Source: Linderina pennispora (Eukaryota; Kickxellomycota; Kickxellomycetes; Kickxellales; Kickxellaceae). Taken from it: a stretch of DNA of 64,000 nt. The DNA lies in the NCBI RefSeq assembly GCF_002104995.1, contig NW_024468263.1, positions 62,001-126,000 of the forward strand, read 5' to 3'. The translations under genes were made by a program, and so were the position numbers. Shown one piece after another: positions 3,159 to 39,647 of the stretch. Within the stretch, counting starts at the first letter, position 1. Each line of letters opens with the position of its first letter. Under the pieces are notes generated by a model, which did no database searches, was not told the origin of the DNA, and worked only from the letters and a program-made list of their open reading frames with translations.

Positions 3159-3220
3159 TGATCTACAAAAACATGACCTTAGCGAAAATGTTCGATATTT
3201 ATATATAACTGGCATATTTT

Positions 3221-17926: not shown

Positions 17927-18700
17927 ATGGCATCTAATCTTTCCTCTTCATCAAACACTGTACCAAAGAAGGCATTGACAGTAAACACCCCCAGCGGCTC
18001 GTCTTCTCAGCAGAATTTAATGGTGGAAATAGCGCGTGCTCCAACCTCATTGCAGCGGGTAATGAATGCTACCGATCCAGCCAGCTTCGGAGTGCTGGAT
18101 CAGTGGAACCAGCAACTAGCAGAGATTGCAATTGGGTTGCAGCAACAACTGGTGGGTCTACTTGCCCACCAGCAATCTGGCTACACACAGTCGCCGCTGC
18201 CGCGTTTACCAGCTGGGCAGATATCTGCGTCACATGTAGACATCGCCCATGTCGATATCCTTCAGCTTATTCCACGTAGCGTGTGTCGAAGCGATGTCAT
18301 TTATGGAATACGTCGAGTATACACTCTGGATTGCTCAAGAAACAAAAAATGCTCGCTAAAGGGCCACCTACAAAAGTTTGACATCAACAAGTCCATGATA
18401 ATCAATTCGCACCCGGTCAGTACCCGGATCGACGAGTTCTTTATTGAGAGTAGCTACGCGGAGACATTCATCCAAAAGATGATTGATGGCAAGGCTGCTT
18501 CGTCTATCGGCATCGATCCGGCCAGTATAATCTGTCAGGAAATCAGGCAGAGTGGACAGAAACCGTCTTCACCATACTACCGCGGGATGCTTCAAAGTGC
18601 ATACTTCGTCATCAAAAATGCTAGGCACACCAGGGCCCTAGAGTACATCGCAGCCTACACAAAAGAGATTGGTGTTGGGATACCAGTGCACGAGAAATAG
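17927..18700 (+). CDS. Tandem-array family member A (unrecognised family, short type)
   Basis: 257 residues, single exon. An unstructured Ser/Thr-rich N-terminus precedes a helix 'FGVLDQWNQQLAEIAIGLQQQL' (Trp60). After a Pro/His/Ser linker comes the C-terminal domain from 'CRSDVIYGIRRVYTLDC' (about 120-135) through 'SHPVSTRIDEFFIESSYAE' to 'YIAAYTKEIGVGI'. These are the three hallmarks shared by every array gene. The predicted order strand-helix-strand-strand-helix-strand suggests a ferredoxin/RRM-like domain, by inference. It is the first intact copy and closest to B and C. Function unknown. The family's nuclear-localisation-like patch is weak here (VPKKA). Confidence 0.75.
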   Translation: MASNLSSSSNTVPKKALTVNTPSGSSSQQNLMVEIARAPTSLQRVMNATDPASFGVLDQWNQQLAEIAIGLQQQLVGLLAHQQSGYTQSPLPRLPAGQISASHVDIAHVDILQLIPRSVCRSDVIYGIRRVYTLDCSRNKKCSLKGHLQKFDINKSMIINSHPVSTRIDEFFIESSYAETFIQKMIDGKAASSIGIDPASIICQEIRQSGQKPSSPYYRGMLQSAYFVIKNARHTRALEYIAAYTKEIGVGIPVHEK

Positions 18701-18925
18701 CTGGCCAAGACGGACTGGCCCGATGCACTCTATCCTATGGGTCCATTGCGGTATTACTCACCTGCCGCAATAGCTGCACAGCAGGGGCTGGTGTAGTATT
18801 AGTCCCCCTCCCCATAAAGTCACACTCATCACGCTACTATCAAAGACAGTATTGGCGTTTGCCGGTGCATCATTTTTATATTCGCTTTTGCACATACTCA
18901 TATCTCATTGTATTGATCAACAAAT

Positions 18926-19720
18926 ATGGCTAATGATTTCACCAACGACCCCACCTACCCTTTTTCCCAGAAAGGCGAAGCTGTTGACCCGAGAAAGAGA
19001 TCTGCAGATACCCTTTACGTGTATAGCGAGGGAACGAAGAGGCGCAATATTTCGGTTTCATTGCGACCCCCAGCCACACCGTTTTCCGATATACTAAACA
19101 CCACCAGCCCGTCTTCCATCGTGCAACTGGATCAGTGGAACCAGCAGCTCGCCGAGATGGTCATTGGGATGCAGCAGCGACTGGCAGAGCTCATTGCTAA
19201 CCAGCATGCGAAGTCTGCGCTCTCTCCACCTCAACTTACAACGTCAAAGGCGCCGGCGGCTCTAGATATGGACAAGGCTGGCATTGATATCTCCACAGCA
19301 GTGCCTCAATGCGACTGTCCAAGCGATATCAAATACAGAGTTCGAAGGATCTACACAGTTGACTGTGTCAAAGACCGCTCAATTTCAGTCAAACGACACC
19401 TACAAAAGTACGGTATTACCAGCTCGATGATCATATATTCTCACCCGATTAACGACCGCTTCGACGAGTTCATTGTTGAGAGCACTTACGCGGACACGTT
19501 TGTACATGCTCTGTACGATGCGCATGCCGTCGCAGTTATCGGCTATAATCTTTCCGGTGTTGTCAGTCAGGCGATATCGCTGGGCGCGCCGGTGCCAACC
19601 TATAGCCAGTACTGCCGCAGCCTAGTCAGTGCTTACAAAATTGCGCGAGGAACGAAGCAGTTCCGAAGCAAAGAGTTTCTGCAGGAGTACGCCGCTGAGA
19701 TTGGCATCAGGCTGCTGTAG
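18926..19720 (+). CDS. Tandem-array family member B (short type)
   Basis: 264 residues. A two-part basic patch ('DPRKRSADTL', 'EGTKRRNISVSL') comes before the QWNQQL helix (Trp71: 'QLDQWNQQLAEMVIGMQQRL'). The C-terminal domain starts 'CPSDIKYRVRRIYTVDC', with 'RFDEFIVESTYADTF' and ends 'FLQEYAAEIGIRLL'. The start ATG is the first in the frame and follows an AT-rich leader. It is strongly similar to A and C over the helix and the C-terminal domain, and lies 225 bases downstream of A on the same strand. Nuclear location is inferred from the basic patch. Confidence 0.75.
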   Translation: MANDFTNDPTYPFSQKGEAVDPRKRSADTLYVYSEGTKRRNISVSLRPPATPFSDILNTTSPSSIVQLDQWNQQLAEMVIGMQQRLAELIANQHAKSALSPPQLTTSKAPAALDMDKAGIDISTAVPQCDCPSDIKYRVRRIYTVDCVKDRSISVKRHLQKYGITSSMIIYSHPINDRFDEFIVESTYADTFVHALYDAHAVAVIGYNLSGVVSQAISLGAPVPTYSQYCRSLVSAYKIARGTKQFRSKEFLQEYAAEIGIRLL

Positions 19721-19895
19721 TGCTGACTGGTCATTTATGCCACTTGAGTACTGGCCACTTTCGCTTGGCTCCTCCACCCCCATAAATATATTAATTCGGT
19801 CATCGCTGCTATAACGGACGGCTGTGTGGAGGGCAAACATCACAACGTACCAGCTCCGCACGTCAATAACTTGTTTGCTTCCAACATTGTACGCC

Positions 19896-20702
19896 ATGTC
19901 GCTTAGCTTACCAAATGCTGCTTTTGACCATTTCTCTCAAACAGGCGAAGAAAATGCAACAAAAAAGCGGCTAGCAGAGCCCAGCTACGGCGGTGCTAAG
20001 GGTCAGAAGCGGCAAATGTACACTGTCGTTCTACAGTCTGCGCAAGCACCATTCCTCGGTGTGCTGAATACAGTTGACCCCTCCGGCATCATGCAGCTGG
20101 ATGAGTGGAACCGACAGCTGGCAGAGCTAGTGGTACATTTCCAAACCAGGATCTCTGAGCTTACCCTACCTCCAGCTGACGAGCCGCAGCAATTGTCAGA
20201 TCCTGCCCGCTCCATGGAAATATTCAGCCCGAAAAAGAGTCAGGCTGCCAATCACGCAGAGTCATGTGCCTATATTTTCATTCCTTCTAATGCATGCCCC
20301 AGCGATAAGAAGCACAGCGTTCGGCGGGTTTATATATTGGACTTTCCAAGAATCAGCGGGAAGAAAGCTAAGCCTAAAAAGCGCCTGAGTACCCATGGTG
20401 TTAATACTGCCAAGATTCTCCTTTCCCACCCAATCTGCCCGCGGGTCGACGAGTTTTTTGTTGAAAGCAGCTATGTAAACGAATTCGTCACCAAAGTTCG
20501 CAGTTCAGGGCTGACTACGCTCTGCACTACCGATGCCAGCAAGGCACTGTGCATTGCTCAGCGCACATCCAAGCCAATACTGTCCTTTCAGAGATATTGC
20601 AGCAAATTCAGGACCGCATATATCACTCTCCCGAAAGCGGCTAAAGGCCGATGCACCAGGTATCTTCAAGACTATGCAATAGAGGTTGGGATTAAACTCT
20701 GA
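19896..20702 (+). CDS. Tandem-array family member C (short type)
   Basis: 268 residues from ATG 19896 (MSLSLPNAAFDHFSQ); the frame extends upstream but without an earlier ATG. A basic patch 'TKKRLAEP...GQKRQ' precedes 'QLDEWNRQLAELVVHFQTRI'. The C-terminal domain runs 'CPSDKKHSVRRVYILDF', 'RVDEFFVESSYVNEF', to 'YLQDYAIEVGIKL'. The α1 segment here is unusually Lys-rich ('KKAKPKKRLSTHG'). The decayed copy D just downstream is clearly derived from this gene. Confidence 0.75.
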   Translation: MSLSLPNAAFDHFSQTGEENATKKRLAEPSYGGAKGQKRQMYTVVLQSAQAPFLGVLNTVDPSGIMQLDEWNRQLAELVVHFQTRISELTLPPADEPQQLSDPARSMEIFSPKKSQAANHAESCAYIFIPSNACPSDKKHSVRRVYILDFPRISGKKAKPKKRLSTHGVNTAKILLSHPICPRVDEFFVESSYVNEFVTKVRSSGLTTLCTTDASKALCIAQRTSKPILSFQRYCSKFRTAYITLPKAAKGRCTRYLQDYAIEVGIKL

Positions 20703-20899
20703 TGTACTTTAGTTAAATAAACAGACCCATATATGGCAATGGTACGGTGCCTCTCAGATAATGCATGGTGTCTTGTATTCTTCCATAAACATGCCGTTTG
20801 ATGCCATTTTGTTATAGCAATATGGCCATGAGTGAGTAGGCACATCATTAAGTAATATATCACGCAATGCCCCCAATATTTCCTACCGCCATTTATCTC

Positions 20900-21674
20900 G
20901 GAGTGCTGACACAGTTGACAGCAAGAAGAGGCCAGCGGATTCCAATAAGTTTGGCGTCGTGATTCAGAAGCGGTAGCAGTATTTTGTCCTACAATTTGCG
21001 CAAGCACCATTCCTCAGGATGCCAAATGCCGTTGACCCATCCAGCGTCATGCAGCTGGATGAGCGGAGCTGACAGCTGACGGACCTAGTGATAAACCTCC
21101 GAACCAGGATCTCTGACCTTGTCCTGTCTGCAGTTGCAGGCTGCAGCAATTGGCAGATCCTGCCCGCTCCTTGGAGACATTCAAGTCGAAAGCAGCCCCT
21201 GGTTCCAGGCTCGGTAAAGCCGATCTACCCTGGCTTATTCATCCTTGCGGGTGTCCCAGAGATAAGAAGCACAGCGCTAGGTGAGTCTATATGCTGGAAC
21301 TCCTCAGAGCTATTGGGTAGAAAGCAATGGTTAAGGAACTCTTGAGGGCCTGTGGCACGAGTACTGTCAGGATCCTCTTTTACTGCCCAAACTGCCTGCT
21401 GGTCAATGAAATTTTTGCTGAAGGCGGTTAAGCAAACGAATTAGTTACCAAGACTGGCAGCTCAGGGCTGACTACGCCATGCACTACCGATGCCACTGAA
21501 GTACTTTGCATTGCTCAGCGTGAAAGCAGCCCATCGCTACCCTGTCAGGAATATGGCAACAAATTTAGGATAACATATTTTAATGCCAAACAGCAAGACA
21601 GCAGCCAGTCCATTGAGTATTTTGCGCAGTATGCTGCGGAGGTCGGGATGGATGCTGTCAAGCAGCTGGCGTAA
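20900..21674 (+). pseudogene. Decayed array copy D, relic of member C
   Basis: Broken frames match member C in order: 'KKRPADSN', 'AQAPFLRMPNAVDPSSVMQLDE' and 'LVINLRTRISDL' correspond to C's 'AQAPFLGVLNTVDPSGIMQLDE' and 'LVVHFQTRISEL'. The copy ends 'YFAQYAAEVGMDAV...' and a TAA at 21672. In-frame TAG and TGA codons (for example just after 'DERS') and several frame changes leave no long ORF. It is a tandem duplicate of C that lost function. Confidence 0.75.
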
Positions 21675-21975
21675 TTGACGCATTTCTGGCAGCAGAGTGG
21701 TGTATAGCAGTCACAGTTGAGCTACTGTCCTTTTAGCATTTGTTGTGTCCCAACATGAATGCTCTCTCGTTACACTGGTGATAACTATTGAAGCTAGAGT
21801 CACTCAGCGTTTCTGTTCCCAGCTGGCATTCCGCAGGCACTGATCAAGGATATCCGATCATAATTATCTCATTCTGGCCATTTTATTTCGCCACAACACA
21901 CTGCAGACAGAGCTAGCCTTTTGTTCCACTTGCCTGCAATTTTTCCTCGTTTCAAGTATTTTGCAAGTTGCTGGA

Positions 21976-22815
21976 ATGTCTTTTACTCAGCTAACAGTGT
22001 CGCGGCCAGCGTTTGTCGGAGATGGGTCAAATAGCGGCGACAGTGCAAAGCGAGTGAAGCTCGAATTCCCTACGAAAGCACGGACCGAGAGAAATTCAGT
22101 TGTCCTGCTGCAACCTGTCTCGGTTGTAATCCCCCACGGGATGCAGCCCGAGGACGCTGCTGGTCTTGTGCGCATGTGTCAGTGGAACCAGGAGCTGTCA
22201 GCAATGGTGATGCATCTGCAGAACCGGGTAGCTGAGCTCCGCCAGGCGCAACAGCATGCACCAGGCCAGATGCCATCAGATTCGCCCATGAGTTCTGCAT
22301 CGACACTCGCTCCAACGAGCCCGCTGAACCAGCAGCCAGACAGGCCATACCAATCACTACGGCACTGCGACTTCAAATACGGGGTTCGGCGCATATACAT
22401 ATTGAAACTTCGTGCAACCAAAGCGAATATGGCGCAGAAGCTTAGTGACATAGGGATTGACTCTGACTGGGCAGTGCATGTCCAGTTTTTGACGCTGAGT
22501 GTGGTTGAGGCCTTCGTCAAAGCAGAGTTTTCCAAGCAGTTCTTCGATAAGCTCATGGAAGCTGGTATTCAGGTGCTTGATGGGTATGAGCCGATGACAA
22601 AGGCCCACCCAGGCCTTACAGATGGCGAGGCGACGCATATAGCAGCGTCATACGGTACGGTGCTGAGAAAAACACTCAAAAAGTTGTCCGCGCCGACTTG
22701 CTCTGTAGAGGAAAAGTTCCTTCATTACCTCCGAGAATATGCCAAGGAGATTGGCGCTCCGCTTAAGGCCACCGTCGTCCAAATGGTGTCACGGCCAGCC
22801 CAGCAGACACATTGA
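21976..22815 (+). CDS. Tandem-array family member E (intermediate type)
   Basis: 279 residues from ATG 21976 (MSFTQLTVSRPAF). It carries 'SAKRVKLEF' at about 23-31, nearly the classic c-Myc-type nuclear-localisation core. Next come 'PVSVVIPHGMQPEDAAGLVRMCQWNQEL', which links the short type (QWN) and the long type (VPILPT..DM..LVRM), then 'VMHLQNRVAELRQ'. Its C-terminal domain starts 'HCDFKYGVRRIYILKL' (the CRSD box is altered to HCDF), has 'SVVEAFVKAEFSKQF', and ends 'YLREYAKEIGAPL' with a 14-residue tail. The sequence suggests it is a link between the two subfamilies. Confidence 0.72.
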   Translation: MSFTQLTVSRPAFVGDGSNSGDSAKRVKLEFPTKARTERNSVVLLQPVSVVIPHGMQPEDAAGLVRMCQWNQELSAMVMHLQNRVAELRQAQQHAPGQMPSDSPMSSASTLAPTSPLNQQPDRPYQSLRHCDFKYGVRRIYILKLRATKANMAQKLSDIGIDSDWAVHVQFLTLSVVEAFVKAEFSKQFFDKLMEAGIQVLDGYEPMTKAHPGLTDGEATHIAASYGTVLRKTLKKLSAPTCSVEEKFLHYLREYAKEIGAPLKATVVQMVSRPAQQTH

Positions 22816-22977
22816 TAAACTTTAGCAATCAGCCCAGCAGAGCTGCACGATCGGCTAAGATCTGTTGTTTTAAATTGCCAGCTGTGACACAGCCCTCGTC
22901 TCACCTCTCTTCTCCACTCTGCCTCCAATCGACTTTTTTTTTCTCTCTTTACACTACTCGTATTCTAGCAATATTTG

Positions 22978-23841
22978 ATGCTTCCATCGCCTAGCCACTC
23001 GCCAGATCAGCTGCAGCACCACGCAGACCAGTCGCCACACACCGTGTTGCCGCCAAAAGAATTTACAGTGTACAGGCCGAGGCTGTCCGATTTTTCATCG
23101 CCGCAAATGTCTAGCCCATGCGCTTCACTTGAACCCGTTAAGGTTAAGATAGCACCAGAAACCCCACCAGAAGAGGCGAAAGAGATCGCAAAAATGTGCG
23201 AGTACAACAACGAGCTCCGGCTGATAGCCGAACTGCTTCAGAAAAGGATCACAATATACGAGCAGCAACAACAACAGCGGAATCAACAGATACAAGAATA
23301 CAAAGCAGTAAACCAGGAAACAACGCCAACCAATTCTGATAAAGCCAGCACACAAAGCCGCTCTCTCAACCCTTCCCCCGAACGACACAGCTACGCCAAG
23401 AAGGATTCTTGTGGAGTTTGCACACACGGCCTGCCTGAGCCATCACCTGTCGAGGCCAAGTATGCCATCCGCACGCTGTACATAAAAGGCATGCGTGTCT
23501 TTCCATACCCCTACATGGACAAGGTCCTGCGGCACTACGATATCGACGATCTGGAGATCTACCATGTCAACTATGTGCTTCCTGATGTCTGTGAGATATT
23601 TGTTTCTCAGCGAGATGCTGAGGTTTTGGTGCGGAGACTACGGCGATACGACAAGGCTATTTTTAAGGGCTTTCACCCACTGCATATTTCGCTCAGGAGC
23701 AAGATGTCGCTGGAGACAAAGAAAACCGAGTACAGAAAGCGCTTGCTGACCAGCTATCACAGATGTGACAATGGGAATTTCCGCCGGTTCGTGAAGAACT
23801 ACTCCTACAGCTTGGGAATTCCACTAGGCTCTACGATATAG
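22978..23841 (+). CDS. Tandem-array family member F (long-type subfamily)
   Basis: 287 residues from ATG 22978. It opens with Pro/His/Gln-rich sequence, then 'EFTVYRPRLSDF' (the 'TVYRP' box is shared with H and N) and the helix 'IAKMCEYNNELRLIAELLQKRI', in which Tyr replaces Trp of the short type, followed by a short Gln run. The C-terminal domain is of the second kind: 'EAKYAIRTLYIKGM', 'RHYDIDDLEIYHVNYVLPDV', 'CEIFVSQRDAEVLVRRLRRY', 'FKGFHPL' and 'RRFVKNYSYSLGIPL'. There is no obvious KR-rich patch before the helix. Same strand and spacing as its neighbours. Confidence 0.72.
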   Translation: MLPSPSHSPDQLQHHADQSPHTVLPPKEFTVYRPRLSDFSSPQMSSPCASLEPVKVKIAPETPPEEAKEIAKMCEYNNELRLIAELLQKRITIYEQQQQQRNQQIQEYKAVNQETTPTNSDKASTQSRSLNPSPERHSYAKKDSCGVCTHGLPEPSPVEAKYAIRTLYIKGMRVFPYPYMDKVLRHYDIDDLEIYHVNYVLPDVCEIFVSQRDAEVLVRRLRRYDKAIFKGFHPLHISLRSKMSLETKKTEYRKRLLTSYHRCDNGNFRRFVKNYSYSLGIPLGSTI

Positions 23842-24114
23842 ATCAGGGGCAGGGCGTATGTGTCCTGACAGACACGCGGACAGCCGGGATGTGCATCTGC
23901 ACGTCGTTTGTGCTGTGCATCGTTGCCTGGGGATTGTGTTACAGGAAGTCTGCTTCCTTCTTCTTGCACATCCTGCCTCCCGCTGATATTTTCAACCATG
24001 CTGCCACCTGTTATTTCACAAGGGTGAGACGATGCCTTCAGCAGTGGCACAAAGAGACAGCGGGTTGAGGAGCACGCGCATAGGGTCGTTTTGAAGACCT
24101 CACCAGTGCAAATA

Positions 24115-24825
24115 ATGGACCTGGGAACCGGTGGCGGTCCGAGCCAGCTCGCACAGTGGAACGACCAGCCCTCTAGCCTACTTTATGGTCTCCAAGGAGA
24201 GCTGTACTTGCTATTGCCGATGCTCCCAACTGGTCACCTGTCATCATCGACCGCGCCCGGGCCGCTGTCACCATTTCTGCTGCTTGGTCCCTCCACCGAC
24301 CATGTGTCTGATGACTGCACTGAGGAATTTGCTTCCTGTGACCAACACCTGCACCCACACTCACCCTTGCCCTCGCCTCTCTCACGCAAACTTGGCACAT
24401 ACACTGTCGACATCCGTCCCTCACACACCTGTCGCAGCGATAAGCGGCACAGCATGCATCGCATCTACACGCTCGGCTTGATGCGACCGCAAAACTCATC
24501 CATGCGAACTCAACAGAGGAAGATGGGTATTGACTCTTCATATGTTGTACATTCGCATAATGTTGTGTGTGGTGTGAACAAGTTTGTCGTTGAAGCGTCG
24601 TATGGGCGTATGTTTGTCAGGCATTTGAATAGCATCAAAGGTGTCAAGGTCATACGGTTTTTTGACCTGCTGCACCCGACCTACAGTGAGCTGTCCCCGG
24701 CGCAGTGGGCAGCACCCCCTGGCATGTACAAGCAACGAGTGAGGACGACATTTTGCGATTCCAAGCCTAGCAGACCCGGATTTATGGCGTACGCGAGGGA
24801 TTACAAGAGAGAAATCGGGCTCTAG
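24115..24825 (+). CDS. Tandem-array family member G (N-terminally short)
   Basis: 236 residues from ATG 24115 (MDLGTGGGPSQLAQWND); the frame is open upstream to 24091 without another ATG. The protein begins directly at the QWN helix ('LAQWNDQPSSLLYGLQ') and lacks the basic N-terminal region of its paralogues. A different frame just upstream (from 24030) has coding-like content, so a frame change may have removed the original N-terminus. The C-terminal domain is intact: 'CRSDKRHSMHRIYTLGL', 'MRPQNSSMRTQQRKMGIDSS', 'VNKFVVEASYGRMFVRHL', 'FFDLLHP' and 'YARDYKREIGL'. It is closest to I, K and L. Confidence 0.62.
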   Translation: MDLGTGGGPSQLAQWNDQPSSLLYGLQGELYLLLPMLPTGHLSSSTAPGPLSPFLLLGPSTDHVSDDCTEEFASCDQHLHPHSPLPSPLSRKLGTYTVDIRPSHTCRSDKRHSMHRIYTLGLMRPQNSSMRTQQRKMGIDSSYVVHSHNVVCGVNKFVVEASYGRMFVRHLNSIKGVKVIRFFDLLHPTYSELSPAQWAAPPGMYKQRVRTTFCDSKPSRPGFMAYARDYKREIGL

Positions 24826-24988
24826 CCAGCTTCCACAAAGCGGATGCAGGAGTGAGATCTGCAAAGCAGACATAGGCACTTGCTGCGCCTGATATCAAAC
24901 GTCGGGAGATGTGGTGCGGGCTGTAAACTCTTTCCTCTCTGTATTCCAAATATCTTGAAATAAACTCATTTTCTCTACCTCACCAGTC

Positions 24989-26410
24989 ATGTCATCTAGC
25001 CTAAGTGTGGGCCAAGAACAGCAGCAAGAACAGCACCAGTTGCACCAGCAGTGTGAAGCAAATATTTCGATGCCACCACAGAATCAAGCACAGCAAACGG
25101 CACCGCTACAGTCACTGCACCTGGTAGAGGCGTTGCAGCAATCTCTGCTTGCAGAGCAGGTATCTCAACAACCACTGTCAGAGGAACCTGCGCTAGTGGA
25201 AGCAACTTCTGAGCGAGGGCAGCTACTGGGGCTAACGCAAAAATCGCCTGTGCACCAGCAGCTCCACCAACAGCTCCAGCGACAGAAGCTCCATCAACAG
25301 CTCCAGCAGCAGCGCCAGCAACAGAAGCGCCAGCAGCAGTTACCAAGGCCTTTTCTTGAACAGGATAGTATGGAACCAGCCGCTGCTGTTACCTCACTGA
25401 CAATTGACCCACCACTCTCCGCAGTAGCATCGTTTGCGCAGCTACCTATCTATTCACCATCGCCAATCTACCCACCACCACCCATGCTAACGGTGTACCA
25501 GCCAGTATTTCCATCATTCGATAGTAGCAGCTTCAGTCCAAAGAAAGTGAAGTTTAGCATCGACACTATGCAAGACGTGCTGCCAGCATCAGCGTGCCAG
25601 GTCGAGCTTGTTCCCATCACCGTTCCCATCCTGCCTACTATGACGATGCAGGATGTCACAAACATAGTGCAAATGGGGGAACGCAACCGCGAGCTGGTCT
25701 CAGCGCTGTTGGCTACTCAAGACAATGTCCTGGCTCTTGAGCATGGCCAGCTCCAGAAGCGAATCCTCGCCCTGCAGTCGCCAATCCTACCAGCTAAGAT
25801 TGGCAGTGCTGCAGCGACATTTGGCTCCGTGTCAAGCCTGCAGAACTTTGCTGTGTCAGCAGCCAACTCAGGGACAACAGCAACAGTCGAAAAACTGTCG
25901 GCAGGTCTTTCCCAAAGCCATGTGACTCTAGCTGCACAGCCCAGGTCACGCGCGCGTGTGGTCAGAAAGAATGTACGCACACTCAAGTATGGCATGCCCA
26001 AGCAAAGTGCGGCCGAGGAGAAGTACTGCATGTGGCGCATCTATGCCAAGGGCCTGCGCGAGTACGGGTCGGAGCACGAAGGGAATTTCCTGGCGCATTA
26101 TGACATCGGCGACCTTGACATATTCCACGTGTACTTTTCTCCATCAGGCACCTGTGAGTTTATTGTAGCTGAACGTGATGCCTACAAGCTTGTTAAGAGG
26201 CTACGCAAGCTGAACAAGACAATTTTGGACGGGTATGGCCCGCTTCGGGATGTGGGGAAAGCAGAGGACACTGAGCTTGTCCGGACGCAGTACACAAAGC
26301 AGCTGGCTGCTAGCCTCGCCAAGTGCCACAATCGAGACTTTAAACATTACGTCGACAGATATGCGCGAGATGTCAATCTCAGCCTGCCAGCCAATCAGTC
26401 GGGGAGCTAG
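24989..26410 (+). CDS. Tandem-array family member H (long, Gln-rich type)
   Basis: 473 residues, the longest copy. The first ~120 residues are Gln/Leu/His-rich ('QQQEQHQLHQQ', 'LHQQLQQQRQQQKRQQQ'). Then come 'LTVYQPVFPSF', a basic 'SPKKVKFSI' (SV40-like nuclear signal pattern) and 'ITVPILPTMTMQDVTNIVQM', followed by 'GERNRELVSALLATQ' and 'LQKRILALQSPI'. The C-terminal domain: 'AEEKYCMWRIYAKGLREYG', 'AHYDIGDLDIFHVYF', 'CEFIVAERDAYKLVKRLRK', 'ILDGYGPL' and 'YVDRYARDVNLSLP'. Gln-rich plus nuclear-type signals suggest a transcription-associated protein, by inference only. Confidence 0.72.
   Translation: MSSSLSVGQEQQQEQHQLHQQCEANISMPPQNQAQQTAPLQSLHLVEALQQSLLAEQVSQQPLSEEPALVEATSERGQLLGLTQKSPVHQQLHQQLQRQKLHQQLQQQRQQQKRQQQLPRPFLEQDSMEPAAAVTSLTIDPPLSAVASFAQLPIYSPSPIYPPPPMLTVYQPVFPSFDSSSFSPKKVKFSIDTMQDVLPASACQVELVPITVPILPTMTMQDVTNIVQMGERNRELVSALLATQDNVLALEHGQLQKRILALQSPILPAKIGSAAATFGSVSSLQNFAVSAANSGTTATVEKLSAGLSQSHVTLAAQPRSRARVVRKNVRTLKYGMPKQSAAEEKYCMWRIYAKGLREYGSEHEGNFLAHYDIGDLDIFHVYFSPSGTCEFIVAERDAYKLVKRLRKLNKTILDGYGPLRDVGKAEDTELVRTQYTKQLAASLAKCHNRDFKHYVDRYARDVNLSLPANQSGS
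25016..25347 (+). repeat. CAG/CAA-rich glutamine-coding tract in member H
   Basis: Imperfect CAG/CAA/CTC triplets encoding the Gln/Leu-rich N-terminus of member H. The triplets are mixed rather than pure, so the tract should be more stable than a simple microsatellite. Confidence 0.55.
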
Positions 26411-26619
26411 GCGACTGTGGGATGTCGATATCTATTATTGTACTTATTGAGCATTGTTTCCGACATGTGTAGTTCGACCCAAGTCTTGCCACAGTGTGTT
26501 TCTGGCATGTCTGGCTGCAGCTTGCTGGCTTGAATAAGGACACGCAGCGCTAGCGGTAAAAGAGAGTGAGGCATGTTGGCCACTTGTCCTTTTCCACTAA
26601 CTTTCTAATTCAATCAAAC

Positions 26620-27606
26620 ATGTCTTTTGTTAGCAAGCAGCCTTTTATGTATGCCTCTCACCAGGACAATCTAAGCAGCGGTATGAAGCGACAGAGAAAT
26701 GGGAACCCAGCACGATACTCAGTCTCTCTGAAGAGTGAAACGGGTGCTGTTGCAACGACGGTTCATGGCGACGCTGCTGTGAGTGTGGGCCAAATTTCGC
26801 AATGGAGTGAGCAGCTTTCCAGCCTTGTTTCCAACGCCCAGGACTATTTGAGTGAGCGCACTGTAACCGAGGCAACCCACATCCATCCTGAATACTCTGC
26901 TATTTCTCCGTCCCTTATGCTGGTGGAGTCACTGAGTGAATCCAGCAGCAATGTGACACCAGCCACGCTCTCCAACCCTTCAGACATTCCTGTCATTTAT
27001 GTGTCAGACTTTCCAAAGGAGCCAAGTGTCTCTGACAAGCGAAAGCCGCGTATCCCGATTTCACAGCGGCTGGGCCCCAGAATAAGTAAACCAACTAATA
27101 GCAGGGCATACACAGCCGACAACTTGAAAAGGCGCAGAAAACACTCAGTTGTATGCAAAAGTGACTTCGTTCACAATATCAGACGTGTCTATATCTATGG
27201 GCTCATGAAGCCCCCAAATATCTCGATGCGAGCTTGCCTCAGCAACAGCTACGGTGTTGACCCAACGGGCATCATATTTTCACACTACATCGCCTATCAA
27301 GTAACTGAACTATTTGTTCATGGCCAGCACACGCAAAGACTAACCAACGGGCTATCCAAATTGAATAGCGTATTGCATCTGAAGGGGTTTAAACCATTGG
27401 AGCCGAATGTCCTACCACACTATATACTTTCATTGGCGCAACTAGATGCTTTTCCAGGCATATACAAAGAGAGCATTAGGGCCACGTTTGGGAATCCACA
27501 TATGTTGAGGGGAACGTTTGAGAGATACGCGCAAGAGTATATGGTGGAAATTGGAGCCGTGGCTCTCGACAACACCATGGCCGCTCCTGGAAGACACATT
27601 CTCTAG
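26620..27606 (+). CDS. Tandem-array family member I (short type, IPISQRLG group)
   Basis: 328 residues from ATG 26620 (MSFVSKQPFMYAS). Basic 'GMKRQRNGNPARYSVSL', then 'VGQISQWSEQLSSLVSNAQDYL'. A linker contains 'KPRIPISQRLGPRISK', a box shared only with K and L, and a second basic patch 'LKRRRKH'. The C-terminal domain runs 'CKSDFVHNIRRVYIYGLMKP', 'ISMRACLSNSYGVDPT', 'QVTELFVHGQHTQRL', 'FKPLEP' and 'YAQEYMVEIGAVAL', with a 13-residue tail. In the α2/β3 part it is more divergent than K and L. Confidence 0.73.
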   Translation: MSFVSKQPFMYASHQDNLSSGMKRQRNGNPARYSVSLKSETGAVATTVHGDAAVSVGQISQWSEQLSSLVSNAQDYLSERTVTEATHIHPEYSAISPSLMLVESLSESSSNVTPATLSNPSDIPVIYVSDFPKEPSVSDKRKPRIPISQRLGPRISKPTNSRAYTADNLKRRRKHSVVCKSDFVHNIRRVYIYGLMKPPNISMRACLSNSYGVDPTGIIFSHYIAYQVTELFVHGQHTQRLTNGLSKLNSVLHLKGFKPLEPNVLPHYILSLAQLDAFPGIYKESIRATFGNPHMLRGTFERYAQEYMVEIGAVALDNTMAAPGRHIL

Positions 27607-28773
27607 CTCATGGCCAATAGTGACCCCTGTACGCCTCTGTTTGGGCGCTACCCACCTATATAAGCAGGTTTTACGGCTAGTCACCTCAATATTCCTCCTT
27701 CCTTATTTCATATAGCATGTTATCATACATTGCAACATACTTCATGGAAAAGTACTCGGAAAGCCACCTTATTACGAACTGCTGCAGGAGGTTGTTTGCT
27801 AGGTACATTGCATACGAGATACTACAGGAGCCTTCAACTGAGCGCCATCAAGTCGATGCCGCTATGCGATATTGAAGAGCTGCACACATATTTGATACAA
27901 TTTGCTGTGTCTCGCGTACGAACTACCCAGGGGATAGCCCTCTGCAACTGTTTAGATATGTTTGCAAACACCTTTCCACAACGTATGTCAGCATTTAATG
28001 ATGTTAGACGAAGGAATGAAGGAGGAACCCTTAGGCTGTTGCAAAGCCGAGTTAATTTCTGCAAACCATGCTGAATCGGAGGGGCAACGAGCCTATGTCC
28101 AGGACCTTGATATGCAGCCTGCCGGCACGTTGTCACAAGACAAACTCTGATAAGAGCTTGAGGTATTTGGTGGGATATGGTGGGATATGGCCACCTCTCA
28201 CATTAATCTCATCTTTGGTTCATTTGTATTCAAATAAAATACTGTTAATGTATGTGGCATATATTGTTGATATTATCCCACTCGTGACAGTGCAGAGCAG
28301 GGTGTATATATACCATGACGTCAGAATCTGCAGCTTGCTTTTCTAACAAACGTGTACGAGAGAATTGCTTCATGTGCGTGTGCGAGAGAGTGCTTGTGTA
28401 GAGACAGCAAGTATTGTGTGCTTGCAGGGCGACCCATGCATTCCCATGGTGAAGCCTGGAGAAGCATATGTCCCTTCAACCACTCAGGAGCGCTCTAGCG
28501 GGCAGACGGACACTTTTGGACAACTGTAGTGTATGGGCACGTGAGACTAGCCACGAGGGAACAAAGCACACCCCCAGGACGCACAGATAAAAGGCCGTAT
28601 GTGACAGAGATACAGATTGTTTCCACAGGTTTATTCTTTTACTCAAAATACAAACACGTCACAACAAAATCGTATGTGCCATAAATTCGGTCAAACAGGC
28701 TCGGGTGTGATTATGACAAGCCATCCTTTTTTCATTTTTCATTCTCAACCATTTTGGTTCTTTTGTTGTATCA
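27607..28773. other. 1.2 kb array gap with broken ORFs
   Basis: Between members I and K. A plus-strand frame from ATG 27718 (MLSYIATYFMEKYSE) runs 48 codons. Overlapping frames to about 28150 ('ELHTYLIQFAVSRVRTT', 'CLQTPFHNVCQHLMMLDEGMKEE') look like pieces of one decayed or intron-split small gene that I cannot name and that does not look like the array family. A tandem GGTGGGATAT repeat lies near 28170. AT-rich leader sequence with GATAAAAGG near 28586 precedes member K. Confidence 0.4.
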
Positions 28774-29742
28774 ATGCCATTCGATAGCCAGCATTCGTTT
28801 CTATCTGTCTCAGACGGCAGCGGTCAGAGTAGCAGCACTAAGCGTGTCAGAGAAGATGAGCCGGTGCGGTATGCAGTTTCGCTGCAAGAGACACCGGGGG
28901 CTGTCATGCAGGTCCTGAACTTGGACACATCGGCAAACATCGGCCATATTTCGCAATGGAACGAACAGCTGGCCAGCCTGATTTGTAACGTCCAGGAGCG
29001 TATCAGTGCTCTCTCAGCAGCGCCTGGGCCGATTGAGCAGCAACCCACAGCTACAATAATCTCGCAACCGCATATTTCAAGAGAGCAAGCGAGCAGCTGC
29101 ACCAGCACATTGGCACTGGCTGAATCACATGACACCAAGCAGTTTTCAAGCGGCTACGAGCCAGATCAGCGGTATAAATCCGATTCAGACGAATCGTACT
29201 TGTCAGATAAAGCACCGCGCATTCCGATCTCGCAACGGCTTGGTTACACGGCCGAATTGCAATTAGCGACTGGCCATGCGTCACTGACAAGGAGTATTAC
29301 TGGCGTGTTTACGACAAAGTCTGGGCGACGCTCAACTACATGCAAAAGCGATAGAGAGCACGGCCTTCGTCGGGTGTACACGATGGGTCTAATGAAACCA
29401 AAGAACTGCTCACTCCGTCAGTACTTGGCGGGAATTGGTATCGATCCAGCTGGTATCGTGTTCTCGCACCATGTTGCGTACACGGTCAATGAACTCATAG
29501 TTAAAGTCGACTCAGTGCAGGCGTTATGCAGAGAGTTAGGCAGGGCTGACGGCGTAAAGGTCCTCAAATTCTTTGACCCACTGAGACCCATGCATTCGGA
29601 ATTATCGTATGAACAAAAACAGGCTTTTCCGGGAATATACAAGAAGAGGCTAAGGGCAACGTTCTCTCCCACCTATTCATCGAGAATTGGATTTGGTGAC
29701 TACGCACGTTCTTATACACGGGAAATCGGGATAGACGTCTGA
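28774..29742 (+). CDS. Tandem-array family member K (short type, IPISQRLG group)
   Basis: 322 residues. Basic 'STKRVREDEPVRYAVSLQE' precedes 'NIGHISQWNEQLASLICNVQERI'. The linker holds 'APRIPISQRLGYTAE'. The C-terminal domain begins 'CKSDREHGLRRVYTMGLMKP', continues 'CSLRQYLAGIGIDPAGIVFS', 'YTVNELIVKVDSVQALCREL', 'VLKFFDPLRPMHSELSYEQ' and ends 'YARSYTREIGIDV'. It is close to L across its whole length, implying a recent duplication. The ATG at 28774 is the first in frame after an AT-rich leader. Confidence 0.76.
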   Translation: MPFDSQHSFLSVSDGSGQSSSTKRVREDEPVRYAVSLQETPGAVMQVLNLDTSANIGHISQWNEQLASLICNVQERISALSAAPGPIEQQPTATIISQPHISREQASSCTSTLALAESHDTKQFSSGYEPDQRYKSDSDESYLSDKAPRIPISQRLGYTAELQLATGHASLTRSITGVFTTKSGRRSTTCKSDREHGLRRVYTMGLMKPKNCSLRQYLAGIGIDPAGIVFSHHVAYTVNELIVKVDSVQALCRELGRADGVKVLKFFDPLRPMHSELSYEQKQAFPGIYKKRLRATFSPTYSSRIGFGDYARSYTREIGIDV

Positions 29743-29993
29743 GTGCATGTTTGAAGCTGCAGCCACCCACGGCGTGTTTGCTGGAGGGCTTTGGCAAATA
29801 CACTCAAAGTAGAAGCACAAGCGAAGCTGTAGGTCGAGTGGGCACTAGCCCGCCAACTAATCTATCTAGAGGGCCGCATATGGAGCGGCGGTTGGCCATA
29901 AGTCTTATGCAATCGGTGTGAAGATATCCATTCTCTATACCCCCTCGTCAAAACAGCGCATATGACTATCCTTTTATTTTTCTCGCATTTACC

Positions 29994-30905
29994 ATGGTCC
30001 TTGGCACTCAGCATACAGATCTTTCAGCCCCATGCGATGCTAGCCAGAGCAGGAATGCAAAACGACAGAGGACGGAGCAACCCACGCAGTATTCTGTCTC
30101 ACTGCAAGAAGTTTCGGGCGCTATAACGCATATGCTTAATGCCGATACAAGTATGAGCATGGGCTATATCTCTCAGTGGAACGAGCAGCTGATGAGTCTA
30201 GTATGCAGCTTCCAGAATAGAATCGACGATATGTCTGCAGCCCCTGAGCCAACCGAGAGCCAGCCCATTTCCACACGAGTATCGCAGCTGTATGTGGCAC
30301 CACCAGGGTTGGCCAGCGAGACTATCGGTACTTTGGCGCAAAGCGATCCAGATAGCTCGACTACTACTTCTCCTGCAGCATCCCCTTCAGACGATTCATC
30401 GCGGCATATTCCGATCTCACAACGACTCGGCAGCCGAGTGACAGAAACAGCTAGTCCACTGGCAAAAACAAGAGTGGTAGTAACAAAATCAGGGCTGCGC
30501 TCGACGACATGCGAGAGTGACTATAAGCATCGAGTCCGCCGTATATACACGATGGGTCTGATGCGACCCAGAGACACCTCCATGCGCCAGTACTTGGCAG
30601 ACCACGGGATTGATTCTACCTGTGTCATGTACTCGCACCATATCGCCTATACGGTCAATGAGTTTATTGTCAGGGTCAAGTATGTGCCGACACTATGTAG
30701 AGCGCTAGACAGGATCGAGGGCGTAGCAGTACTCCGGTTTTTCGATCCGCTGAATCCAGACCACCGGGGGCTATCGTATGAGCAGCGGCAATCGTTTCCA
30801 ATACTGTACCGCAACTGTGTGAAAGGGAGATACGACACAGCCATCACAGCAAGACGGGGCTTCATCGAGTACGCACTGGACTATTTAAAGGAGATTGGTA
30901 TTTGA
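29994..30905 (+). CDS. Tandem-array family member L (short type, IPISQRLG group)
   Basis: 303 residues. 'NAKRQRTEQPTQYSVSLQE' then 'SMGYISQWNEQLMSLVCSFQNRI'; linker box 'SRHIPISQRLGSRVTE'; C-terminal domain 'CESDYKHRVRRIYTMGLMRP', 'TSMRQYLADHGIDSTCVMYS', 'YTVNEFIVRVKYVPTLCRAL', 'VLRFFDPLNPDHRGLSYEQ' and 'YALDYLKEIGI'. It is the closest relative of K and the probable source of relic M directly downstream. Confidence 0.76.
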   Translation: MVLGTQHTDLSAPCDASQSRNAKRQRTEQPTQYSVSLQEVSGAITHMLNADTSMSMGYISQWNEQLMSLVCSFQNRIDDMSAAPEPTESQPISTRVSQLYVAPPGLASETIGTLAQSDPDSSTTTSPAASPSDDSSRHIPISQRLGSRVTETASPLAKTRVVVTKSGLRSTTCESDYKHRVRRIYTMGLMRPRDTSMRQYLADHGIDSTCVMYSHHIAYTVNEFIVRVKYVPTLCRALDRIEGVAVLRFFDPLNPDHRGLSYEQRQSFPILYRNCVKGRYDTAITARRGFIEYALDYLKEIGI

Positions 30906-31189
30906 GCAGCAGTGTAGAACCGACTACCATATCTGTATCTTACAATTGATTCTATAAATAAGAGGCCTTCATACTGCCATTTTATCTTCGCAAGGTGGGT
31001 AGCTGCATGGTGTTTTCCACGTTTCATGGGCTAGTGATGTCGCATATACACCGAAATGCCATGGCAGTGTGGTATTGTGGAAGGGAGAGCAGACACCGAG
31101 GAATACTGAGGGGCTGTCATTGAGCAGGCTAAAGAGGATAGTAGCTCCATATATGAGACTTCCGAGTCATCCAGCTGCCGAGAGACTCA

Positions 31190-31420
31190 TACTGCGTTTA
31201 CTGCCAACGAGTTTGTAGTCAACATCGGCTATATGCAAATGTTTATCAGTGGGCTGGTGTGGAGTCCTAAAGTGCTAGTTCTGAATATCTTTGATCTCTT
31301 GAACCTTGCTCACACTCCACTTGCAAAAGCTCAGCAGTTCGGCGTTGCATCATTTCAGGTGCAATGCATAAGGAATACGTGCACATCCAGGTATACGTCG
31401 ACCGACAAGTGCAGAAAATA
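31190..31420 (+). pseudogene. Array relic M (C-terminal domain fragment)
   Basis: A short plus frame reads 'AFTANEFVVNIGYMQMF' and 'VLVLNIFDLLNLAHTPLAKAQ', aligning with 'YTVNEFIVRVKYVPTL' and 'VLRFFDPLNPDHRGLSYEQ' of member L. No N-terminal part or QWN helix is found and no long frame exists. It is a truncated, decayed copy. Confidence 0.65.
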
Positions 31421-31595
31421 GGTGCACGACAGCATGCACGAGCATCGTGTGCTGATAGTGGCCGGTGCAGCGTGATCGGCAGCACTGAAATGTACCGCGC
31501 TCAAATTTATCTGGGGTACTATCGTGCAGATTTTGTAGCGACTTTTTTGACACCTTTTCACCTCCACAAAATTGCACTTTTCATTTCCTATAATT

Positions 31596-32921
31596 ATGCT
31601 TCCGTTCAATGCGTCCACAGCGAACCTGACGACGAGTCCGATGTACTTGTCAACTTCACCGGCTCTATCTCCTGTACAGCAGCAGCAGCAGCAGCAGCAG
31701 CACCAGCAGCAGCACCAGCACCAGCAGCAGGGGCAGGAGCAGGAGCAGCAATTCCCGTACGAGACATACCAGCAGCAGCAGCAGCATGGGCAGCAGCTTA
31801 GGCAGCAACCCTATTCAGAGCCAGCACAGTTAGCCACACCCCCAGCTGTCATGGCAACGCCTGCAACAGGACCCCCAGCCACTCCATCTGTATTGACGGT
31901 TTATCGACCAGTATTCAAAGAAGTGACAGAATCCTCGCAATATGGCGAGCCCAGCGCAAAGCGAGCGAAGCTGGGTGCTGGTTCGAGCCAGTGCTTTCGG
32001 ACGCAGCAGGTTGTAATTGAGCCAATAAGTGTGCCCATTCTACCAACAATGCCTATAGAAGACATGGACGGACTGGTGCGGATGAGTGAGTATAACCGCG
32101 AGCTAGTATCGGTCTTAATGTTGTCGCAAGACAAGCTTGCCAGCATGGAACGGGAGCAGCTGCAGAAGCGGATTTTAGCCCTGCAGGCACCCATCATGGC
32201 ATCGAGCGTTTCTGCGAATCCGGCACCACTGGGCTTCCCGGCGGCACCAGCCCTAACGCCTGTGTCGAAACCTGTGCTGGTGATGGCGTCAACGCCAGCA
32301 GTCAAAATGTCACCGACAAGTACACCTACACCCAAGCCTGCGGAGTCACCTCAGCATAAAATAGCGTCAAAGCCTGAAACCAAGCCTGTCGGAATAACCA
32401 TAAAGTCAGCCAGCAGCGCAGCTTTGACACATGGTTCGCGTACATCCTCAGTCCATTCTGCACAGAAAAACGGCCACGAATGCAGACACACGATGCCTTG
32501 GCAGTCGAAGACAGAGCAAAAGCACTACGTCTGGCGCGTGTATGTCAAGGGCCTGGTGGAATACAAACCCGAGCAGTCACGCGAATTTCTCAGCCACTAT
32601 GACATCGACGACCTCGATGTCTACCACTTCTACTTTTGCACCTCAGATGTGTGCGAGCTTATCACCACCAACCATGATGCGCCGCGGCTCGTGCGGCGAC
32701 TGCGCAAACGCGGCAAAATCATACTCGATGGATTCGACCCACTGATGTTCCGCGACTCCGATGGCGAGTGGCGGAAGGTGAACCAGTGGATGAGGAGCCG
32801 CTATGCGAAGCGCCTCCTGAGCAGCTACTCTAAAAGCAGCCACCGCGACTTCCGACGCTATATCCACGCCTATGCGCGGGACATTGGCTTGGAGCTCCCG
32901 TTTGATGATATACAGCCGTGA
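31596..32921 (+). CDS. Tandem-array family member N (long, Gln-rich type)
   Basis: 441 residues from ATG 31596 (MLPFNASTANLTTSP). It has a Gln/His run from about residue 28, 'LTVYRPVFKEV', basic 'SAKRAKLGAG', 'ISVPILPTMPIEDMDGLVRM', the helix 'SEYNRELVSVLMLSQDKL' and 'LQKRILALQAPI', then a Pro/Thr/Lys-rich linker. The C-terminal domain: 'EQKHYVWRVYVKGLVEYK', 'SHYDIDDLDVYHFYF', 'CELITTNHDAPRLVRRLRKR', 'ILDGFDPL' and 'YIHAYARDIGLELP'. It is the sister of H and shares every box with it. Confidence 0.74.
   Translation: MLPFNASTANLTTSPMYLSTSPALSPVQQQQQQQQHQQQHQHQQQGQEQEQQFPYETYQQQQQHGQQLRQQPYSEPAQLATPPAVMATPATGPPATPSVLTVYRPVFKEVTESSQYGEPSAKRAKLGAGSSQCFRTQQVVIEPISVPILPTMPIEDMDGLVRMSEYNRELVSVLMLSQDKLASMEREQLQKRILALQAPIMASSVSANPAPLGFPAAPALTPVSKPVLVMASTPAVKMSPTSTPTPKPAESPQHKIASKPETKPVGITIKSASSAALTHGSRTSSVHSAQKNGHECRHTMPWQSKTEQKHYVWRVYVKGLVEYKPEQSREFLSHYDIDDLDVYHFYFCTSDVCELITTNHDAPRLVRRLRKRGKIILDGFDPLMFRDSDGEWRKVNQWMRSRYAKRLLSSYSKSSHRDFRRYIHAYARDIGLELPFDDIQP
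31677..31812 (+). repeat. CAG microsatellite / polyglutamine tract in member N
   Basis: Starts with eight uninterrupted CAG triplets (31677-31700), then CAG mixed with CAC, GGG and GAG. It encodes a Gln/His-rich stretch within the N-terminal region of member N. The pure part is prone to length change by slippage. Confidence 0.7.
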
Positions 32922-32980
32922 GGAATGCAGCTGCCAGCACACTATTCTCTTCTCCGCTCCTTTTCGCCAATACAGCTTCC

Positions 32981-33706
32981 ATGGCAGCACATTCCCGAAA
33001 CCAGAATGAGGGGGGCTCGGAGACCACCAACAGTACCCCTGCAATAGTCTCAGGAAACGCCGACACAATGAGAAGGCTGGGCACCTGGAACGATCAGCTT
33101 GCAAGTACCGTGTTGCAGCTCCAGCAGAGAGTGGCGAGGTTTTCTGCTGACCAGCTTGCGTCAGAGGCGACGAGGGAGCCTCCCAGGCTGCCACAAAGGC
33201 GAGCGAAGAGCCCATCTTCAACATGACCGATGAGCCGGTCGCCAGGGCCACATGGGGGCCGTTCATCGAGAGCACGGAGGAGCGAGTCGCCAGCATCATC
33301 AAAACCCCTATCTCGGAACATTGCGCATAGCTACTCCACGTCAGAGCCCGGCAGAGCGCCAAGGGCCAGTGCTAGTTGCACTAGTGACTTTAAGCGCCGG
33401 ATCCGACGCGTGTACACCCGTGGCCTGTTCAGACCAGATCAGCGCTACAAGGTCGTCTTTTGGCACAGGGTCTGCTCTGACATTTGCGAGTTCTTCGTCG
33501 ACAAGGACTACGTGAGACAATTTGTGGACAGGCTTCATGAGAAAAAAATCGGGACTATTCGGTCCTTCATGCCTCTGCGTCCCACGCATCTGTCGCTGTC
33601 AGTCGACGAGCAGAGCCTACGCCAGTCATATAGAGATTGCCAGGAAAGGCGGTTCCAGGCACTCCTTCAGAACTATGCCAGCGAATTTGATATCAGGCTC
33701 TGCTGA
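32981..33706 (+). pseudogene. Tandem-array member O, interrupted by one in-frame TGA
   Basis: From ATG 32981 (MAAHSRNQNEGGSE) the frame encodes the helix 'RRLGTWNDQLASTVLQLQQRV' and stops at a TGA at 33224-33226. The same frame resumes at once (ATG 33230) and encodes a complete C-terminal domain: 'CTSDFKRRIRRVYTRGLFRP', 'SDICEFFVDKDYVRQFVDRL', 'IRSFMPLRPTHLSLSVDEQ' and 'LLQNYASEFDIRLC'. No frame shift is involved, so one base change (or a read error) is enough to split it. A separately expressed C-terminal protein of 158 residues starting at 33230 is possible. Overall length without the stop would be 241 residues. Confidence 0.6.
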
Positions 33707-33819
33707 ATCCAGGGCTTTCAGCTTGGCTAATTACGCCACAGCCGGGCCAGCCCCACTGTTTTTTTGGCTTTCTTGGCTCCACTTGTAAAAAAAATTCTTT
33801 GCATAGCTCACATTCTGAA

Positions 33820-34560
33820 ATGCTACCTTCCACACTCAGCAACGGGGCGAGGAAGCACAACACGCAAGATAACGCGCCAGCACATGTGTCTGTACAGCTG
33901 GGGCAGCCGTCAAAGCTGGAGCCAACGCTGTTCCCTGGCCAGGACATGGGCGAGTCAGCAGCGAAGTTGAGCGACTGGAACAACGAGCTTGTGACGCTGG
34001 CGCTGCACTTGCAGGAGCAGCTCAATGATCTGCTTGCTGCACAGCAGCGGCAACCATCGTTATTAATTGCCCAGCCTTTCACGTATCCGCTGCCTCCTGA
34101 ATCTCACAAGCAGGAGATGCCAGTACTGCCACCAGCAAAGCTGGACCTGTCCCGACCATGTCGCAGCGACTACAAGCATGGCGTTCGGCGTGTGTATACT
34201 AAAGGGCTGGAGAAAGCACAGAACATGACAATGAAGAAGAAGCTTGCTTCCCTCGGCGTTGATGCCGAAAAGGTCATCTTCTCGCACACCCTCCCCTTCC
34301 AGACACGCGAGTTTATAGTCGTTAGCGACTATGTAAAAGATTTCTGCGCAAAGATTCAGCAGTCTGGGTTCGAAATACTCGATAAATTTGACCCCCTGGA
34401 TCCACAGCACCCGCTTCTCACCAGTAAACAGCAGAAGCAGTATCCTTCGCGATACCGTGCGTCTCTAGCTCCTGTGCTCAAGGCCTGTGTCGGAAAGGTG
34501 TACAGTCGATTCAAATCCTATGCCAGGGACTATGCAAAGGACATCGGGTACAAGGTGTAA
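33820..34560 (+). CDS. Tandem-array family member P (short type, last copy)
   Basis: 246 residues from ATG 33820 (MLPSTLSNGARKHNT). The QWN motif appears as 'KLSDWNNELVTLALHLQEQL'. The C-terminal domain is highly typical: 'CRSDYKHGVRRVYTKGLEKA', 'MTMKKKLASLGVDAEKVIFS', 'QTREFIVVSDYVKDF', 'ILDKFDPLDPQHPLL' and 'YARDYAKDIGYKV'. The N-terminal basic patch is weak (GARKH). It closes the array, 344 bases before the RFWD3-like gene. Confidence 0.75.
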   Translation: MLPSTLSNGARKHNTQDNAPAHVSVQLGQPSKLEPTLFPGQDMGESAAKLSDWNNELVTLALHLQEQLNDLLAAQQRQPSLLIAQPFTYPLPPESHKQEMPVLPPAKLDLSRPCRSDYKHGVRRVYTKGLEKAQNMTMKKKLASLGVDAEKVIFSHTLPFQTREFIVVSDYVKDFCAKIQQSGFEILDKFDPLDPQHPLLTSKQQKQYPSRYRASLAPVLKACVGKVYSRFKSYARDYAKDIGYKV

Positions 34561-38822: not shown

Positions 38823-39647
38823 TTAGCACTTGACAGTGGTGGTCTTGCCGTCGTTGTCCAGAGCCTTGATCGAGCTGCCCCACTTGTACTGCTTCTGGGC
38901 AACCACGTACTGGTACGACTTGACGCGGGTGATGCTGTCTGCCCACTCCTCCTGCGTCTCCTTGTTGTGCGGGTTCTTCAGGTCATCCATGCGCACCTGC
39001 AGGAACTTTGTCAGCCAGACGATTTCATCGACATTGTGGCCGTTGATCTTGAGCGTGCTGCCCGACGAGCCCTTGGCATCGGCCTTGAACGACGCGCTGG
39101 TCTTCTTGATCAGTGCACCGACCGAATCGGGATCCGAGCCATCGCCGTGCTGGATTGTTGTGTCGTACAGCTGGGCGCGGGTCACGTCGAGCTGCGCACC
39201 CAGCTTATCCGCCAGCTTCTGCGACGGGTCAAAGTACATCTCGTCGCGCACCTTGTCCTGCGCCGCGCGGAACTTTGCGTCCGACTTGCCCAGCTTGCCC
39301 CACACCGAGCAGTAGCCGTCCAGCCCGCTGACCGAGCCGCTGTTCGACTGGTCCAGCTTCTTCATGACCGCGTCGTACTTGCTGAATGCGTCCTTGCCGC
39401 CGGTCATCTTGTGGTACTCCTGCAGGACGACCCAGGCGTCCGAGGTGCCGGTGCAGAACCCAGCAATGCCGGCTGTGTAGCCGCGCCCGTCCTTGAGGTT
39501 CTCGCAGTAGTCGTAGTGGAAGGCGGTGTCGCCGTTCTCGTAGATGTTGGTCAGACCCAGAGCGATCTTCTTGGAGCAGGCAGACATGGCGGCGTTGGTC
39601 GTGGCGATGGTGGCAAGGAGGCCAAGAGCGGTGGCAGTGAACTTCAT
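38823..39647 (-). CDS. Secreted GH46 endo-chitosanase
   Basis: 274 residues with a signal peptide (MKFTATALGLLATIATTNA, cleavage near 19). The GH46 core is evident: 'NIYENGDTAFHYDYCENLKDGRGYTAGIAGFCTGTSDA' holds the catalytic acid Glu (in IYEN) and the general-base Asp (in KDGRGYT), matching Glu22 and Asp40 of the Streptomyces N174 enzyme. Later 'SVWGKLGKSDAKFRAAQD' and 'AQLYDTTIQHGDGSDPDS' are also family features. It would hydrolyse beta-1,4-linked glucosamine in chitosan, for wall turnover or for feeding on other fungi. GH46 is chiefly bacterial and sporadic in fungi, where Kickxellales are known carriers, so ancient transfer is plausible. No intron is seen. A TATA box lies about 105 bases upstream. 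Confidence 0.92.
   Translation of the reverse strand: MKFTATALGLLATIATTNAAMSACSKKIALGLTNIYENGDTAFHYDYCENLKDGRGYTAGIAGFCTGTSDAWVVLQEYHKMTGGKDAFSKYDAVMKKLDQSNSGSVSGLDGYCSVWGKLGKSDAKFRAAQDKVRDEMYFDPSQKLADKLGAQLDVTRAQLYDTTIQHGDGSDPDSVGALIKKTSASFKADAKGSSGSTLKINGHNVDEIVWLTKFLQVRMDDLKNPHNKETQEEWADSITRVKSYQYVVAQKQYKWGSSIKALDNDGKTTTVKC

Follow-up and report, generated by a model that had tools for sequence, protein, structure and literature searches.

A 64,000-nucleotide window of the Linderina pennispora genome (contig NW_024468263.1, here C57, positions 62001-126000; genome 26.2 Mb, 222 contigs) was analysed for a tandem array of an unrecognised gene family. The array has 15 slots, lettered A to P, at 17927-34560 on the plus strand (Table 1). 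These coordinates, the strand, the single-exon layout and the count agree with a first-pass annotation made from the DNA letters alone. The single-exon structure is little proof here, because a number of neighbouring genes likewise consist of one long open frame.

Array members and the two haplotypes

An ATG and a stop codon were present in A, B, C, E, F, H, I, K, L, N and P, and the window sequence bore out O as a copy with one stop and D and M as relics. G had also been listed as open. Its frame begins directly past a stop codon and has no in-frame ATG before codon 30 (24115), which lies behind a KR cluster. Given this late ATG, a frameshift in the other haplotype and a ratio of nonsynonymous to synonymous rates (dN/dS) of 1.02, G is better called a relic. 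Protein probes connected the paralogs far beyond chance, with the lowest E-value between K and L (3.7e-82). The gap at 27607-28773 was searched for family sequence and none was found.

The genome was probed with proteins K, B, N, P, F and E (six of the 13 members) at E cut-offs of 0.01 or 1, with only the best candidates scored. The family was located on C57 and contig C192 only. Elsewhere, two weak matches to F alone were detected (E 0.12 and 0.17), covering its N-terminal half. C192 was colinear with window positions 13960-51126, the segment compared, and the five main pieces showed 95.6-97.5% identity; C192 was therefore taken as the other haplotype of the region. Further probes found a 98% partner on C197 for 3001-3800 and no partner for 62001-63000. 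A paper (PMC6784888) places L. pennispora in the Kickxellomycotina and reports non-haploid genomes in three of four Zoopagomycota.

Both haplotypes hold the same slots. Their copy differences are losses and not gains, affecting G, O and the N-terminus of A, and D is shorter. Divergence per kb was 1.4-5.5% in the array against 0.8-8.1% in the flanks, and was thus not raised inside the array. The Q-rich N-termini also vary in length between haplotypes, by 54 bases in N (31677-31750) and 12 bases in H (25253-25339).

Table 1. Members of the array and modelled parts of K (aa, amino acids; comparisons are with the C192 haplotype)
Feature	Position	Strand	Remarks
A, 257 aa, subfamily A/B/C	17927..18700	+	dN/dS 0.43, p 0.07; N-terminal frameshift in C192, later ATG remains
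B, 264 aa, A/B/C	18926..19720	+	dN/dS 0.53, p 0.20; C192 has 1 additional base near start, initial residues changed
C, 268 aa, A/B/C	19896..20702	+	dN/dS 0.25, p 0.016
D, relic of C-like copy	20857..21653	+	45-47% to C, in-frame stops; C192 version about 100 bases shorter
E, 279 aa, divergent member, AKRVKLE signal	21976..22815	+	dN/dS 0.15, p 3.4e-5
F, 287 aa, F/H/N	22978..23841	+	dN/dS 0.16, p 1.7e-4
G, open frame, probable pseudogene	24028..24825	+	first in-frame ATG is codon 30; C192 frameshift; dN/dS 1.02 with indels
H, 473 aa, Q-rich N-terminus, F/H/N	24989..26410	+	dN/dS 0.51, p 0.075; EC988 counterpart P0003
I, 328 aa	26620..27606	+	dN/dS 0.49, p 0.034
K, 322 aa, protein modelled (AlphaFold2)	28774..29742	+	dN/dS 0.07, p 6e-6, lowest between haplotypes
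K residues 52-82, predicted long helix with QWNEQL	28927..29019	+	model; helix alignment, 12 members
K C-terminal domain, predicted RRM-like order with two added helices	29341..29739	+	model
L, 303 aa	29994..30905	+	dN/dS 0.09, p 9e-5
M, relic fragment, G-like (35%)	31206..31391	+	
N, 441 aa, poly-Q N-terminus, F/H/N	31596..32921	+	dN/dS 0.37, p 0.014; 54 bases longer in C192
O, in-frame stop 33224-33226	32981..33706	+	C192 allele open, 250 aa
P, 246 aa	33820..34560	+	dN/dS 0.37, p 0.23; EC988 counterpart P0006

Selective constraint and age of the array

Codons were compared between haplotypes in 14 pieces, representing the 13 members with O split in two and G read from the first base past the stop. 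Site counts were made without transition bias and p values were uncorrected unless stated. In total, 170 nonsynonymous and 133 synonymous differences gave a pooled dN/dS of 0.38 (p 4e-15 against neutrality). After Bonferroni correction across the 14 pieces, neutrality was rejected for E, F, K and L. The values of K (0.07), L (0.09), E (0.15) and F (0.16) showed constraint equal to that of an RFWD3-like neighbour (0.16), and the array as a whole was looser than this neighbour (Fisher p 0.003). Uncorrected p values were also below 0.05 for C, I and N, and the 3' piece of O, like A, B, H and P, showed the same tendency without individual significance. G was neutral and non-significant, and the 5' piece of O, with zero synonymous changes, had an undefined dN/dS and was also non-significant. 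Among the 11 intact genes, the ratio was 0.16 in the helix and 0.22 in the C-terminal domain (C-domain), compared to 0.47 in the N-termini and 0.43 in the linkers (Fisher p 0.014). The array is under selective constraint, and the absence of constraint in all copies, which the first-pass annotation had named as evidence against the family, was not observed.

The identity of C-domains among the 13 members ranged from 12 to 54%. In the tree, F/H/N (100/100) and A/B/C (99/99) were supported and the remaining branches were not. Synonymous sites were saturated in five of eight paralog pairs, with dS 1.7-2.6 in the other three. Strain EC988 has a counterpart of H (P0003) that is 91% identical in the C-domain, and one of P (P0006) with 97% identity across 60% of the query. 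The low paralog identity, the synonymous sites near or at saturation and these counterparts indicate that the array is old. The family had been proposed to be rapidly growing; this was rejected, because paralog divergence is too large, all eight pairs are near or at saturation, and the haplotypes share the same slots and differ by losses.

A Pfam scan of ten frames on both sides identified JmjC/PHD, ECH_2, protein kinase and DUF6593 genes to the left of the array, and RFWD3-like, NFACT-R_1, GH46, TatD and CDC73 genes to the right; the tenth frame (41772-43586) had no match. The public gene model P0001 (17068-19717) joins the upstream DUF6593 gene with parts of A and B, so the annotation partly conceals the family. 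The GH46 gene lies close to the array at 38823-39647. At 51648-58409 a single open frame of 2253 aa, which we take to resemble midasin, fits an intron-poor genome. Haplotype divergence reached 6-8% per kb at 40000-43000 and 45000-46000, compared to about 1-4% over the greater part of the segment examined, and this rise surrounds a 605-aa frame on the minus strand (41769-43586) with no Pfam match.

Sequence features and predicted fold

The helix pattern QWNxQL was confirmed as common to the family, although not in its full form in every member. Gln at position 15 was conserved in 12/12 helices and the hydrophobic spacing in 9-12/12 per position, but W in only 9/12, being replaced by Y in F and N and by R in H. 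At the DNA level the pattern had four matches in 26 Mb, all within the two haplotypes of this array, and the reversed-pattern control had none. The C-domain is conserved, but its supposedly universal CRSD start was retained as C.SD in nine of 13 members and absent from E, F, H and N. Nuclear-import-like signals were present in the sequences, in line with the suggestion of putative nuclear proteins. No upstream motif common to 12 genes exceeded shuffles (best 6-mer p 0.095, 7-mer 0.22, 8-mer 1.0).

None of the 15 proteins or 14 C-domains exceeded a Pfam cut-off, so the family remains unrecognised by that database. Only scattered one-member matches appeared (E 0.012 or worse), and the scores given for two proteins fall under the curated cut-offs. 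A PDB sequence search returned only weak matches, the best at E 0.36 (CEP57, SPF27) and 0.22 (saposins). The named protein matches to the array were all from L. pennispora (DL89DRAFT and EC988 entries), a further match (P0005) was identical to L of the window, and no relative outside this species was found in 5.8 billion proteins within reach of a search by shared 5-letter words. Lineage specificity therefore holds within that reach; since such words are needed, and in one search only the best 8000 candidates were scored, distant relatives may exist unseen. Titles and the first lines of abstracts on L. pennispora and its group, on lineage-specific expansions and on similar arrays contained no mention of the family, which is nameless. 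The term undescribed system was too strong for one gene family with no partner genes shown. The family is new and its predicted fold familiar.

That no domain could be named was correct for the sequence. In the AlphaFold2 model of K, the C-domain was predicted with high confidence in an order like that of RNA recognition motif (RRM)/ferredoxin-like folds, strand-helix-strand-strand-helix, with two extra helices in addition. A crude Chou-Fasman average was in rough agreement with this later model. Among the 50 matches listed for the K fold, RRM-bearing titles were the commonest named kind, and the fold score was weak.

An RNP2-like strand 1 with an aromatic residue at position 2 was found in nine of 13 members, a number reached by none of 5000 shuffles, with a pattern picked after viewing the sequences. 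A, B, C and E were not matched. A slightly laxer pattern matched nine of 12 Linderina RRMs. All 13 window copies carry the strand-1 tyrosine. An RNP1-like motif in strand 3 was found in 0/13 members, compared to 11/12 RRMs of the same genome. The RRM_1 profile (PF00076) had no match in the 15 proteins, the 14 C-domains or the array, and hhalign against the 12 Linderina RRMs gave a probability of 0.2, with 53/200 shuffles scoring as high. A canonical RRM was thus not found by sequence. The family resembles RRMs in predicted strand and helix order and, in nine members, in an RNP2-like strand 1, but differs in the missing RNP1 and profile match, the weak fold score and the two added helices. The C-domain may function in an RRM-like manner and is not classed as an RRM.

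Proposed function and alternatives

Our preferred interpretation, held tentatively and with rather less than even confidence, is that the array encodes nuclear, self-associating, nucleic-acid-binding proteins that diversified at one locus through old tandem duplication. Nuclear import, pairing, nucleic-acid binding and any regulatory role are inferred. The N-terminus would be disordered, often with a basic nuclear-import-like signal, and the short coiled-coil-like QWNxQL helix would pair with itself or with sister proteins. A disordered linker would lead to the RRM-like C-domains with their two added helices, whose beta sheet, with the strand-1 tyrosine, may contact RNA or single-stranded DNA. 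If the helix joins subunits as proposed, the A/B/C, F/H/N and E/I/K/L/P subfamilies could assemble into distinct complexes, for instance on transcripts in the nucleus. In the EC988 counterpart of H (P0003), the strand-1 tyrosine is replaced by histidine, which slightly reduced our confidence in this interpretation.

With the same anatomy, the C-domain could instead be a ferredoxin-like protein-protein domain, and the proteins nuclear adaptors or transcription co-regulators with no nucleic-acid contact. We put this at roughly one chance in three; the RNP2-like strand 1 in 9/13 members and the prevalence of RRM titles among the 50 listed matches argue against it.

An origin from the first open reading frame (ORF1) protein of a long interspersed nuclear element (LINE), captured by the host and then tandemly duplicated, is attractive by layout, unsupported in two sequence tests and, in our estimate, improbable. 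The helix, RRM-like domain and C-terminal helices in the model of K mirror L1 ORF1p, which has an N-terminal basic region, a coiled-coil-like helix, an RRM-like domain and a C-terminal part (see PMC9410894 and PMC5940361). The genome contains LINE-like elements, but none of its 43 RVT_1 matches (E 0.001) lies on C57 or C192, so the array contigs lack a reverse transcriptase match. The 31-residue helix modelled in K is also shorter than the coil of L1. The six-member probes found no relative outside the array beyond the two weak F-only matches. ORF1 of the two LINEs read did not align to the family (hhalign probability 0.1). Both elements, L081 and L082, have a long ORF1 and frames resembling an endonuclease. 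Takeover of ORF1 has a precedent among fungi in the EKA effector family of the powdery mildew Blumeria, described in PMC4641428 with >1350 homologues linked to LINE copies. EKA is likewise lineage-restricted, whereas the Linderina family is confined to a single array at a single locus.

A selfish or recognition locus, such as a killer-type drive or self/non-self genes with variability maintained by conflict, is very improbable. A tandem array with alleles broken in one haplotype (O, the N-terminus of A, G) would suit it, but array divergence falls inside the flank range, slots are identical in both haplotypes, and dN/dS is below 1 everywhere except G and the undefined 5' O piece. That the array is a decaying set of dead copies or of spurious open frames is hardly credible: G, D and M appear dead and O is broken in one haplotype, but neutrality is rejected for E, F, K and L after correction, the pooled p is 4e-15, EC988 proteins match H and P, and dN/dS rules out a spurious or dead array as a whole.

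A further comparison may be drawn with tandem clusters of nuclear regulators such as KRAB zinc-finger clusters. They would share with this family the old tandem paralogs, the probably nuclear location and the modular build, but in the Linderina proteins no Pfam domain, zinc fingers included, exceeded its cut-off. A more speculative and rather doubtful extension is a new nuclear RNA-binding family with an RRM-like fold unrelated in sequence to RRMs, whose own paralog set in one fungal lineage would form combinatorial helix-paired complexes.

The array represents a case where structure prediction yields a fold and sequence searches yield none. Furthermore, the family is conserved, multi-copy and probably nuclear, lacks a Pfam entry and is confined to a single locus in a fungal lineage that has received little study, which makes it a good test case for the origin of new nuclear proteins.
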